Shown: positions 11,301-48,141 of the stretch, one piece after another | Layout: every line of letters starts with the position of its first letter | Numbering within the stretch: position 1 is the stretch's first letter | DNA from: an uncultured Lutibacter sp. | GTDB taxonomy: Bacteria > Bacteroidota > Bacteroidia > Flavobacteriales > Flavobacteriaceae | Length of the DNA: 64,000 nt | NCBI RefSeq assembly: GCF_947493565.1 | Contig: NZ_CANLRG010000001.1 | Span: 62,001 to 126,000 of the forward strand | Direction of reading: 5' to 3' | Notes under the pieces: model-generated | Databases searched by the model: none | Told to the model about the DNA's origin: nothing | The model's input: the letters and a program-made list of their open reading frames with translations, nothing else | Program-made: the position numbers and the translations under genes

Positions 11301-12536
11301 CTATATAAGCTTTCCATTAATATAAACCTTTTCTATATGGTTATTGCCAAAAGAATAAGGTAAAAAATAATAACTAGGTATTTCTTTTGTAATTATAAAA
11401 TTGGCTTTTTTTCCTTTGCAAATACTTCCATGCGTTTTTTCTAGACCCATTGCGTATGCTGCATTAATGGTAGCTGCATTTATGGCTTCTTCTGGAGTCA
11501 TTTTCATTTTAATACAGGCTGTGGAAACAACAAAATTCATATTTCCTGAAGGGGTAGAGCCAGGATTGTAATCTGTCGCTAAAGCTAATGGTAATCCAGC
11601 ATCTATCATTTTTCTTGCAGGAGTGTATGGGATGCTTAAAAAGTAAGAACAAGATGGCAATGCTATTGGCATAGTGTTTGAGTTTTTTAGGGCTTCAATA
11701 TCTTCAATTCTCATTTCCTCTAAATGATCTACAGAAAGAGCATTGAATTTTATCCCTGCTTGCACTCCGCCTATTGCTGTAAATTGATTTACATGAATTT
11801 TAGGTTTTAATCCATAGTTAGCTGCTGCTTGTAATAGTTTTTCAGTATCTTCAACACTAAAATAACCTGTTTCACAAAAAATATCAATAAATTCTGCCAA
11901 ATGTTCTTGGGCTACAATTGGTAGAATTTCATGAATTACTTCATTTAAATACCCAACTTTATTGTTTTTATATTCTAAAGGTAGTGCGTGAGCGCCTAAA
12001 AAAGTCGCTTTAATGGTGATAGGGTAGACTTCATTTAATTTTTTTATAACTCTAAGCATTTTTAATTCTGCTTCCTTTGTTAAGCCGTACCCCGATTTAA
12101 TTTCAACTGCCCCAGTACCTAACTTCATAACTTCCTCAACTCTTTTTGCAGATTGTTTGTAGAGCTCTTCTTCTGAAGTATTTTGTAATTTTTTAGCTGA
12201 ATTTAAAATCCCTCCACCATTTTTCGCAATCTCTTCATAAGTCAGTCCATTTATTCTGTCAACAAACTCTTGCTCTCTATTTCCAGCATAAACTATATGA
12301 GTATGGCTGTCGCACCAAGTAGGAAGTACAATTTTCCCAGTGGCATCAATCAGTTGATCAGAAGTTATTTCTGATAAATCTTTCATTTGACCAAAATCTA
12401 TAATGCAATCATCGTTAATTAATAAAAAAGCATTTTTAATAGTTGGTAAAACCTTCATGTCTTTTCCAGCTACCATTTTTTTTGGTGTATTTTCAACTTG
12501 AAGTAGCTCTTTAATATTAATAATTAATGTGGTCAT
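11301..12536 (-). CDS. hutI: Imidazolonepropionase
   Basis: HutI hydrolyses imidazolone-5-propionate to N-formimino-L-glutamate, the third step of histidine degradation. The 411-residue amidohydrolase has the metal-binding motif CDSHTHIVYAGNR (75-87, His78 and His80), the FLGAHALP strand, HVNQFTAIGG, the DHLEEM segment and ATDYNPGSTPSGNM with the metal-binding Asp. Length matches HutI. No hutH, hutU or hutG lies in the window. It has its own promoter and is convergent with the Wzc-like gene. The divergent partner is pta, with a CRP/FNR-like palindrome midway between the two promoters. Confidence 0.95.
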   Translation of the reverse strand: MTTLIINIKELLQVENTPKKMVAGKDMKVLPTIKNAFLLINDDCIIDFGQMKDLSEITSDQLIDATGKIVLPTWCDSHTHIVYAGNREQEFVDRINGLTYEEIAKNGGGILNSAKKLQNTSEEELYKQSAKRVEEVMKLGTGAVEIKSGYGLTKEAELKMLRVIKKLNEVYPITIKATFLGAHALPLEYKNNKVGYLNEVIHEILPIVAQEHLAEFIDIFCETGYFSVEDTEKLLQAAANYGLKPKIHVNQFTAIGGVQAGIKFNALSVDHLEEMRIEDIEALKNSNTMPIALPSCSYFLSIPYTPARKMIDAGLPLALATDYNPGSTPSGNMNFVVSTACIKMKMTPEEAINAATINAAYAMGLEKTHGSICKGKKANFIITKEIPSYYFLPYSFGNNHIEKVYINGKLI

Positions 12537-12557: not shown

Positions 12558-12565
12558 CAAAGATA
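12558..12565 (-). promoter_or_regulatory. Promoter -7 element for hutI
   Basis: TATCTTTG on the minus strand, 21 bases upstream of the hutI ATG; matches TAnnTTTG exactly. Confidence 0.6.
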
Positions 12566-12609: not shown

Positions 12610-12625
12610 TGTGACAAATGTCACT
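12610..12625. promoter_or_regulatory. CRP/FNR-like palindromic operator between hutI and pta
   Basis: The site reads TGTGACAAATGTCACT. It contains the perfect 14-bp inverted repeat GTGACA-AA-TGTCAC and fits the TGTGA-N6-TCACA pattern of CRP/FNR-family regulators. Its centre is 54 bp from the centre of the pta -7 element and 56 bp from that of hutI. That places it near -61 for both divergent promoters, a classic class I activator position. A close relative lies upstream of ppdK. The regulator is not in this window. Confidence 0.6.
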
Positions 12626-12667: not shown

Positions 12668-12675
12668 TATCTTTG
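12668..12675 (+). promoter_or_regulatory. Promoter -7 element for pta-ackA
   Basis: TATCTTTG matches TAnnTTTG and ends 16 bases before the pta ATG at 12692. Confidence 0.6.
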
Positions 12676-14785: not shown

Positions 14786-15970
14786 ATGAAAATTTTAGTA
14801 ATTAATAGTGGCAGTTCTTCAATTAAATATCAATTATTTAATATGCCTCAAGAAGAAGTTATTTGTTCAGGTTTAGTAGAAAGAATTGGTTTAAATGACG
14901 CCGAAATTCATTATAAATCAAATAAAAATAAGATTGATGAAGTTGTAAATATTCCAACCCATAAAGTTGGTTTAGAAAAGGTTGTAAGTTTGTTGTTAGA
15001 TGAAAAAGTAGGAGTTATTAAATCTACTTCAGAAATTGAGGCAGTAGGTCATAGAGTGGTTCATGGAGGTAGTACATTTTCTAATACTACAGTAGTTAAC
15101 CAAAAGGTAAAAGATAAAATAAAAGCATTATTTTCATTAGCACCACAGCATAATCCGCCAAACTATGAAGGAATTTTAGTTGCAGAAACTATTTTTCCAA
15201 ATGCAAAACAAATTGCAGTTTTTGATACTGCTTTTCACCAAAGTATTCCAATTGAAGCTTATAAATACGCTATACCAAATAAATTTTTAAACGAAAAAAA
15301 TATTCGTGTATATGGTTTCCACGGAACAAGTCATAAATATGTATCTGAAAAAGCAATAGCACATTTAAAACTTAAAAAATCTAATATTATTACCATCCAT
15401 TTAGGAAATGGATGTAGTATGACCGCAGTTAAAAATGGAAAAAGCATAGATCATTCTCTAGGCTTTGGACCTGTTACGGGGCTTATTATGGGGAGTAGAA
15501 GTGGAGACATAGACCAAGCTATAATTTTTCATTTAGTAAATAATTTAGGGTATCAATTAGAAGAAGTAAAATCTATGCTACAAAACGAAAGTGGAATGTA
15601 TGGGTTAACTGGATATAGTGATTTACGTGATATAGAATCTGAAGCTGAGAAAGGAAATAAAGAGTGTCAATTAGCTTTAGATATGAATGCTTATAGAATT
15701 AAAAAGTATATTGGTTCTTATGCAGCAATTATGAATGGATTGGATGCTATAGTTTTTACAGCTGGTATAGGTGAAAATTCTGACGTAATTAGAAAATTAG
15801 TTTGTACAAATATGACTTATTTAGGAATTGAATTAGATGAAGAGAAGAATAAAGTTAGAGCTAAAAAACTAACCGAAATTCATAAAGAAAATTCAAAAGT
15901 TAAAATATTAATTGTTCCTACGAATGAAGAAGTTGAAATAGCAAAACAGTCTTTTCAATTAATTAGTTAA
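14786..15970 (+). CDS. ackA: Acetate kinase
   Basis: AckA converts acetyl phosphate and ADP to acetate and ATP, and the reverse. The 394 residues carry the two kinase signatures: VINSGSSSIKYQLF (4-17) and VYGFHGTSHKYVS (~172-184). Other conserved blocks are GHRVVHGG, AVFDTAFHQSIP with the catalytic Asp, IHLGNGCSM, and TAGIGENS. Length is normal. With pta it makes ATP during overflow or fermentative metabolism, or activates acetate. The ATG follows the pta stop with no gap. A terminator follows about 20 bases after the stop. Confidence 0.97.
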   Translation: MKILVINSGSSSIKYQLFNMPQEEVICSGLVERIGLNDAEIHYKSNKNKIDEVVNIPTHKVGLEKVVSLLLDEKVGVIKSTSEIEAVGHRVVHGGSTFSNTTVVNQKVKDKIKALFSLAPQHNPPNYEGILVAETIFPNAKQIAVFDTAFHQSIPIEAYKYAIPNKFLNEKNIRVYGFHGTSHKYVSEKAIAHLKLKKSNIITIHLGNGCSMTAVKNGKSIDHSLGFGPVTGLIMGSRSGDIDQAIIFHLVNNLGYQLEEVKSMLQNESGMYGLTGYSDLRDIESEAEKGNKECQLALDMNAYRIKKYIGSYAAIMNGLDAIVFTAGIGENSDVIRKLVCTNMTYLGIELDEEKNKVRAKKLTEIHKENSKVKILIVPTNEEVEIAKQSFQLIS

Positions 15971-39559: not shown

Positions 39560-39687
39560 GTATCTTTATACAAGTACTTATTTAAAAGCAACAATCTCTG
39601 TTTAAACAATTATTATATGATTTATATCAGAGAAAAATTAAAATAAAATAATGAACTTTATAGTATAATATTAAAAGCAATTCGTAT

Positions 39688-40068
39688 ATGGAAAGTCAGT
39701 TAGTATTCTTAAGTGATCTTAATTTCAACTTAGATGTTTGGAAAAGAGAATTAAAATTTCAAGAAAGTGAAATGGATTATTTTGAAGAAAAATTAGAACA
39801 TGTAGCTATGCGTAATCTTGGAAATGAGGTTATGATACAATTAGAAGGGTTTCAAAATAAAATAATTCGTGAACGTGAAGTAATGGGTCATTTAAGACAT
39901 AGAATTAGAATGAAAAAACGTGAATTGGCTAAAGCTAAAGTGGATAATTCACAAGAAATAGTATTTCAAGAAAAACAAATTTTATTGAAAGATGAAATGA
40001 AAACTTTTGTAAAAATGCATTACCAATTAAAAGAAGATATGATGGATTTCTTCTTAAAGTATTTGTAA
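39688..40068 (+). CDS. Conserved coiled-coil protein
   Basis: A 126-residue, highly charged and almost wholly helical protein (MESQLVFLSDLNFNLDVWKREL...). Heptad-like spacing of Leu and Ile runs through residues ~17-115, with no signal peptide or membrane segment. I know of no named domain. It ends in an aromatic FFLKYL. It stands alone with a strong terminator that also stops the convergent dehydrogenase operon. Confidence 0.75.
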   Translation: MESQLVFLSDLNFNLDVWKRELKFQESEMDYFEEKLEHVAMRNLGNEVMIQLEGFQNKIIREREVMGHLRHRIRMKKRELAKAKVDNSQEIVFQEKQILLKDEMKTFVKMHYQLKEDMMDFFLKYL

Positions 40069-48097: not shown

Positions 48098-48105
48098 CAA
48101 ATTTA
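48098..48105 (-). promoter_or_regulatory. Promoter -7 element for ppdK
   Basis: Minus-strand TAAATTTG, matching TAnnTTTG, 40 bases before the ATG at 48057. Confidence 0.55.
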
Positions 48106-48127: not shown

Positions 48128-48141
48128 ATGACTTATGTCAT
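48128..48141. promoter_or_regulatory. CRP/FNR-like palindrome upstream of ppdK
   Basis: ATGAC-TTAT-GTCAT is a perfect inverted repeat and shares the TGACnnATGTCA core with the pta/hutI site. Its centre is 33 bp upstream of the -7 centre, so about -41 from the likely start of transcription. That is a class II activator position. A second inverted repeat AGTAA-N6-TTACT follows at 48165-48180. Confidence 0.55.

Follow-up and report, generated by a model that had tools for sequence, protein, structure and literature searches.

Putative CRP/FNR-family operators at pta-ackA and ppdK point to a low-oxygen regulon in Flavobacteriaceae

The DNA analysed here is a 64-kb stretch of a 3.10-Mb Lutibacter genome in 37 contigs (C1:62001-126000), hereafter the window. 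Two palindromes stand at metabolic genes, one between the divergent hutI and pta genes and one upstream of ppdK, and hutI, pta, ackA and ppdK all score above the curated cut-offs of their NCBIfam families (Table 1). The original prediction saw in both palindromes a CRP/FNR-family box common to pta-ackA and ppdK, in class I-like and class II-like positions, and this description is borne out: both lie where predicted with perfect 5-bp arms (GTGAC/GTCAC at pta, ATGAC/GTCAT at ppdK), and the centre-to-centre spacings to the -7 elements of pta (54 bp), hutI (56 bp) and ppdK (33 bp) are exact. The 4-bp spacer is asymmetric in both boxes, and the outermost T...T of the pta box is unpaired. Counted from the -7 elements, the boxes would be centred at about -61 (pta) and -41 (ppdK). 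The window holds two copies of the sequence TGACNNATGTCA, where 0.08 would be expected, and 2 of 100 shuffles contained it at least twice.

Table 1 Features of the two palindrome loci, in window coordinates.
Feature	Position	Strand	Remarks
hutI, imidazolonepropionase	11301..12536	-	Divergent neighbour; NCBIfam TIGR01224, 432 bits
hutI -7 element TATCTTTG	12558..12565	-	56 bp from pta box; distance not conserved
pta box TGTGACAAATGTCACT, core TGACAAATGTCA (12612-12623)	12610..12625	.	Class I-like position, predicted at about -61
pta -7 element TATCTTTG	12668..12675	+	54 bp from pta box centre
pta, phosphate acetyltransferase, 697 aa	12692..14785	+	Putative target; NCBIfam NF004167, 905 bits
ackA, acetate kinase	14786..15970	+	Directly after pta; NCBIfam TIGR00016, 466 bits
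ppdK, pyruvate phosphate dikinase, 909 aa	45328..48057	-	Putative target; NCBIfam TIGR01828, 1333 bits
ppdK -7 element TAAATTTG	48098..48105	-	33 bp from ppdK box
ppdK box ATGACTTATGTCAT, core TGACATAAGTCA (- strand reading; 48129-48140)	48128..48141	.	Class II-like position, predicted at about -41

An extra box, TGATTTATATCA, occupies intergenic positions 39618-39629 of the window, ahead of a 126-aa open reading frame (39688-40068) that matched nothing in Pfam at the applied threshold; a -7 element is absent at 31-35 and 52-56 bp from this box.

Across the Lutibacter genome, TGAC-N4-GTCA occurs 22 times against 14 in the reversed control. This excess is modest and weak when taken alone, and would suit the view that the palindromes arose by chance in AT-rich intergenic DNA. 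The placement of the sites speaks against that view: 12 of them fall outside any open frame, upstream of genes, where 8.6% are expected (the window's share of such non-frame upstream positions; p = 5e-8), and the motif is thus commoner ahead of genes than expected, as the original prediction had required of a regulatory site. The spacing is likewise non-random, with TAnnTTTG standing eight times at 32-34 bp from these 12 sites, where the other offsets predict 0.17 (read in both directions; seven of the 12 boxes contribute, one with an element on either side), and TGA-N6-TCA followed by 22-24 nt and TAnnTTTG found 39 times against 4 in the reversed control. Taken with the constancy of the ppdK box and the box counts of the family, both given below, these figures make a chance origin hardly credible.

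With the box written as TGAY-N4-RTCA, the same arrangement is found 36 times against 1 in the control. TGAC-N4-GTCA, the motif put forward originally, is a subset of this wider box and was rejected as the full motif for being too narrow. Judged from the -7 element, a gap of 22-24 nt would put the box at about -41.5, where class II activators bind and where TGA-N6-TCA stands in an FNR-type class II operator. Four of the 39 occurrences were flagged as lying within an open frame (L041, L043, L044 and L050), and two are faces of a single box (L053 and L054); a search over 350 bp at L035, L039, L040, L043 and L067 found no ATG-started gene of at least 70 codons. The strict boxes, 35 distinct ones with L044 and L050 among them, divide into eight with TGAC/GTCA half-sites, 11 mixed and 16 with TGAT/ATCA; matched half-sites are in some excess, which makes two overlapping box specificities conceivable. 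TGA is followed by T in 23 of the 35 and by C in 12, and preceded by A in 18, T in six and G in five. The FNR operator consensus is TTGAT-N4-ATCAA, from which the 35 boxes depart in having most often A before TGA.

A close ppdK orthologue was found in 10 of 60 family genomes, the window's included (73-100% identity; one a contig-end fragment), while six further genomes have distant homologues alone (25-32% identity) and a genome that is 7% contaminated carries a pair of copies at 51% identity. All ten close ppdK promoters, from the window and nine relatives, carry TGAY-N4-RTCA, exactly 23 nt and TAnnTTT[GA], a pattern relaxed after inspection (the exact TAnnTTTG is present in 4 of 10). Half-sites of the TGAC/GTCA, mixed and TGAT/ATCA kinds all occur among these promoters at identical spacing. 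Neither of the 51% copies has a box.

The conservation in relatives that the original prediction called for, which is complete at ppdK in both box and spacing (10/10), holds at pta in part within Lutibacter and fails at greater depth. The nearest listed Pta proteins, of which the first 17 (L070-L086) are 80-87% identical, belong to Lutibacter and to unclassified MAGs of flavobacteria. A box lies within 250 bp of pta in 16 of 80 pta loci, where about 1.6 would be expected at the box density of the window (5 in 64 kb), and none was found within that distance in the other 64. The 54-bp spacing to the pta -7 element recurs in seven loci besides that of the window, all Lutibacter (L073, L076, L078, L080, L081, L082 and L084), the box being TGATATTTATCA in L080 and TGACAAAAGTCA in L073; in four loci the box is 33-34 bp from the -7 element (L092 and, in Flavobacterium, L105, L106 and L111) and in five it stands at other distances. 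By eye, an imperfect box can be made out in L070-L072 close to the class II position of pta. Because the pta box is patchy and the ppdK box keeps a constant spacing, the pta site appears to be one that moved or was lost in evolution and the ppdK site one that is fixed.

It had also been suggested that a single site serves both divergent promoters, pta and hutI. The distance from the box to the exact TAnnTTTG of hutI is 58, 45, 45, 55 and 56 bp in relatives and 56 bp in the window, while that to the pta element is 54 bp in all eight loci, six of which have a divergent hutI; in L078 and L080 the pta box is present and no divergent hutI was found. We abandoned the shared-site proposal on these grounds. 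Since the spacing is kept to pta only, the box most likely belongs to pta, and hutI is probably no target.

Family searches of the genes behind class II boxes in the Lutibacter genome gave a KorA-type 2-oxoacid oxidoreductase, with a divergent 4Fe-4S ferredoxin off the same box, as well as PpdK, Usp, a hybrid PAS kinase, a ResB/CcsB-type cytochrome biogenesis protein, HemG and PEP carboxykinase (PckA). Also in class II arrangement are a P-type metal ATPase fragment that occupies the place of ccoI, CcoN/CcoO of a cbb3 oxidase (254 bp downstream, with a small frame in between) and a formate acetyltransferase (PflB) fragment that falls below its family cut-off because the sequence is cut. OorD-like ferredoxin, NuoA-like and EtfB-like proteins each score under the family cut-off, and the box of the EtfB-like gene, TGAGTATTATCA, is non-strict. 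Further class II genes encode an Fe-S/NrfD protein, ArsR, sulphate permease family and glyoxalase family proteins, FeoA, Hsp20, DPP IV, FadL-like, Fasciclin and Phenol_MetA_deg proteins. A TGAC box at other spacings precedes pta-ackA (54 bp), a DUF2249 gene (61 bp), tnaA (63 bp), hemA and the gene of a cytochrome c protein. Named by eye are NorC- and NorB-like proteins (L236; no NCBIfam match), a NapD-like protein (no Pfam or NCBIfam match) with a NapA-like protein behind it, and a second Usp (L059); L047, L049, L060 and L065 matched nothing in Pfam at the applied thresholds.

Three of these loci have details of their own. The korA-ferredoxin box (C7:36912; L024/L053) has a -7 element on each side, at 33 and 32 bp, and is apparently a putative shared divergent operator. 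The DUF2249 protein (L013:1613-2152; C6:72113) lies behind a TGAC box with 61 bp to the -7 element. Directly under the class II box of L049, a frame that leaves the locus encodes 491 aa or more (L049:3-1475; C6, about 152-153.5 kb); the protein has no Pfam or NCBIfam family and is probably co-regulated.

Among the class II targets that could be recognised, about half fit oxygen limitation, namely the high-affinity oxidase, NO/nitrate reduction, haem and iron genes and pyruvate/PEP/acetate fermentation; the other half, among them DPP IV, Fasciclin, Hsp20, ArsR and FadL-like proteins, have no obvious oxygen tie. As a whole the targets point to an FNR-type low-oxygen regulon. The original prediction had named oxygen or carbon source as the possible signal; the target list supports the first, in the form of oxygen limitation and alternative respiration, and makes the second less favoured. 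Were the box read by a MalR-like regulator, a CRP-like protein responding to carbon source or cAMP, then pckA, ppdK and pta-ackA would fit as carbon genes and the GTGAC half-site at pta would recall the TGTGA of CRP sites. Carbon sensing has been assigned through similarity to MalR to CRP/FNR homologues of a Flavobacteriales MAG, according to PMC8510549, which reports homologues of FNR for MAGs of Nitrosomonas and Rhodocyclaceae. The largest recognisable target group, however, is low-oxygen respiration, haem, iron and fermentation, GTGA is not general (G precedes TGA in 5 of 35 boxes, A in 18), and box counts track two other kinds of protein, described below. Carbon control by a MalR- or CRP-like protein was set aside as first choice on the strength of the target list, and we regard it as very unlikely; for flavobacterial CRP/FNR homologues our data point to oxygen and not to the carbon sensing described in PMC8510549.

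Eight Crp-type HTH proteins are encoded in the Lutibacter genome. The recognition helix A-[TK]-E-[ST]-x-I-R is common to four of them, namely three receiver-CRP fusions (on C2, on C8 and on C1 near 364 kb) and an FNR-like protein of 228 aa (C1:53765-54448). Other Crp-type proteins have a different helix (L019, L022 and L023). Among the matches listed for the 60 family genomes, a near-full-length FNR-like protein is present in 38 and a receiver-CRP protein in 26, at cut-offs of at least 43% and at least 41% identity, respectively, that were chosen after seeing the matches. These genomes, the window's included, hold 592 boxes against 39 in the control, with a density per Mb of 4.68 in the 15 genomes that have both regulators, 3.38 in the 11 that have receiver-CRP alone, 2.19 in the 23 that have FNR-like alone and 0.46 in the 11 where neither was found (control 0.17). 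Box density follows regulator presence in a rank test (p = 7e-7, uncorrected for relatedness); the genomes with neither regulator are few (11) and related to the others, and four of them are at least 2 Mb in size, with one box each. Beyond the 60, in a set of 80 phylum genomes, six Flavobacteriaceae have 6/1, 10/0, 5/0, 7/0, 14/0 and 8/1 boxes/control and a genome from a different family of the same order has 10/0, while 11 genomes of the class have 0-5 boxes each and the remaining 61 of the phylum 0-4 each; the box signal fades outside Flavobacteriaceae. The single CRP/FNR regulator originally proposed gives way to two kinds, FNR-like and receiver-CRP proteins, both of which probably read the same box, judging from the shared helix and the co-occurrence.

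The two forms of half-site could also belong to different regulators. DNR and NnrR regulators use a TGAC half-site and have nor/nap-type targets, and if an NO-responsive protein of this type read the TGAC form and FNR the TGAT form, pta and ppdK would be NO/nitrate-responsive. The NorC/NorB-like and NapD/NapA-like targets, the excess of matched half-sites and the Crp-type proteins with a different recognition helix all agree with such a division of labour. TGAC and TGAT interchange at the same promoter, however, both in the ppdK set and at pta (L080 and L073), and the 11 mixed sites of 35 make such boxes common; the range of targets is wider than that of DNR/NnrR, and the FNR-like candidate has conserved cysteines. 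We consider NO-specific reading of the TGAC form unlikely and continue with oxygen as the probable signal.

The FNR-like gene is divergent from a ccoI-like gene and ccoN. In 30 FNR-like loci, that of the Lutibacter genome included, the 500 bp ahead of the FNR-like gene contain a box 27 times (about 1 in 30 expected at the window's box density) and a divergent ccoI-like frame is found 28 times by a loose motif; class II spacing faces ccoI in only 4 of the 30 and fnr in one. The protein has the fold and HTH of the CRP family (PF13545, 59.9 bits, cut-off 27), and its PDB matches are CRP/FNR proteins (best 2gau, 2.3e-25), while against NCBIfam Fnr it reaches 93 bits, under the cut-off of 228. The ligand cysteines of E. 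coli FNR are C20, C23, C29 and C122. Aligned at 69.7 bits to structure 9qlt, the FNR of A. fischeri, the Lutibacter protein matches three of the FNR cysteines with Cys 4, 7 and 106, while Asn 13 takes the place of the fourth (C29) and Cys 53 falls on an alanine. Cysteines 4, 7, 53 and 106 (Lutibacter numbering) are present in 30 of 30 aligned FNR-like proteins (best 30 of 38) and a fifth, 59, in 27 of the same 30; the survey demanded CxxC near the start, and 0 loci were lost to that demand. Because the fourth ligand place is Asn and the invariant Cys 53 lies elsewhere, we do not claim membership of FNR. Cys 53 and Cys 106 presumably sit on neighbouring beta-roll strands of the CRP fold, and for that reason Cys 53 may replace the lost cluster ligand. 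Our guess is that the protein carries an Fe-S cluster resting on this different invariant cysteine and would work like FNR without being filed as FNR.

All three receiver-CRP genes stand immediately after the gene of a PAS histidine kinase, and a class II box lies just behind each, with usp next in two of the three (one by Pfam, one by eye). The C2 protein consists of receiver, cNMP-binding and Crp HTH domains, and the C8 protein scores 75 bits against NCBIfam FixK, under the cut-off of 300; FixK is a separate, receiver-free CRP-type protein, and here the receiver is fused. The PAS domain of FixL has a proximal haem histidine and a distal arginine. Both align in the PAS domain of the C2 kinase (L231; FixL 1d06, E 9.7e-13), which may bind haem and O2. 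In the best receiver-CRP loci of the 26 genomes (L201-L226), the histidine is kept in 22 of 26 and the arginine in 19 of 26; the alignment of L203 begins past both residues, L210 has Phe, and L215 and L226 have no FixL match. The second Lutibacter kinase (L232) keeps the histidine and has Ser for Arg. The third (L233; C1, about 364-366 kb), with a gap and Ile, is without the haem histidine and may sense something else, though it lies beside a similar box.

Taken together, we consider it likely that the palindromes are operators of a flavobacterial low-oxygen regulon. A dimeric activator of the CRP/FNR family would bind TGAY-N4-RTCA and activate ppdK and many other promoters from a box whose centre precedes the -7 element by about 33 bp (about -41.5, class II), and pta from a box that precedes it by 54 bp, two helical turns further (about -61.5, class I). 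As oxygen falls, the FNR-like protein would gain an oxygen-labile Fe-S cluster, and/or a FixL-like kinase would phosphorylate the receiver-CRP protein. Either regulator would then turn on the cbb3 oxidase, NO/nitrate reduction and anaerobic haem and iron genes, together with the pyruvate/PEP/acetate branch (PflB, KorA, PckA, PpdK and Pta-AckA). The fuller proposal gives Flavobacteriaceae an oxygen switch with two branches, one an FNR-like protein whose fourth cluster cysteine is re-sited, the other a FixL-like kinase acting on a fused receiver-FixK protein; both would act through one box, mainly at -41.5 of the Bacteroidota-type promoter, and either branch would suffice. In our estimate this proposal could equally prove right or wrong.

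In E. coli, FNR recognises TGA...TCA cores six apart, activates from -41.5 or -61 and has pfl, nap and feo among its targets. The proposed regulon resembles that of E. coli and Aliivibrio FNR in its palindrome, its positions, the three aligned cysteines and targets of the pfl/nap/feo type. It differs in that the box is mostly ATGAY, not TTGAT, and is set against the Bacteroidota TAnnTTTG promoter, and in that the flavobacterial protein has Asn in the fourth cysteine place and another invariant cysteine. The rhizobial FixL-FixJ-FixK system is similar in its FixL-type haem-histidine PAS kinase, CRP-type output, cbb3 targets and parallel FNR-like regulator; here, by contrast, in a member of the Bacteroidota, one protein combines the receiver, cNMP-binding and Crp HTH domains and, because receiver and CRP domains are fused, a separate FixJ-to-FixK transcription step would be unneeded. 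The closest functional analogue appears to be Rhizobium leguminosarum, in which hFixL-FxkR-FixK acts alongside FnrN (PMC7888657). A literature search of titles and abstract starts returned no account of this box, regulon or regulators in flavobacteria, and nothing on flavobacterial low-oxygen sensing that controls nitrogen-oxide respiration and fermentation; because most subscription papers lay outside the search, this is weak evidence of novelty.

The box, its position rule, the target list and two candidate sensors are present in many genera and can be tested by ordinary genetics. If the reading is true, anoxic gene control would be predictable from sequence in an abundant bacterial family. 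The relocated cysteine, should it hold a cluster, would represent a variant of the classic oxygen sensor, and the receiver-CRP fusion would be a shortened form of the rhizobial FixL-FixJ-FixK chain.
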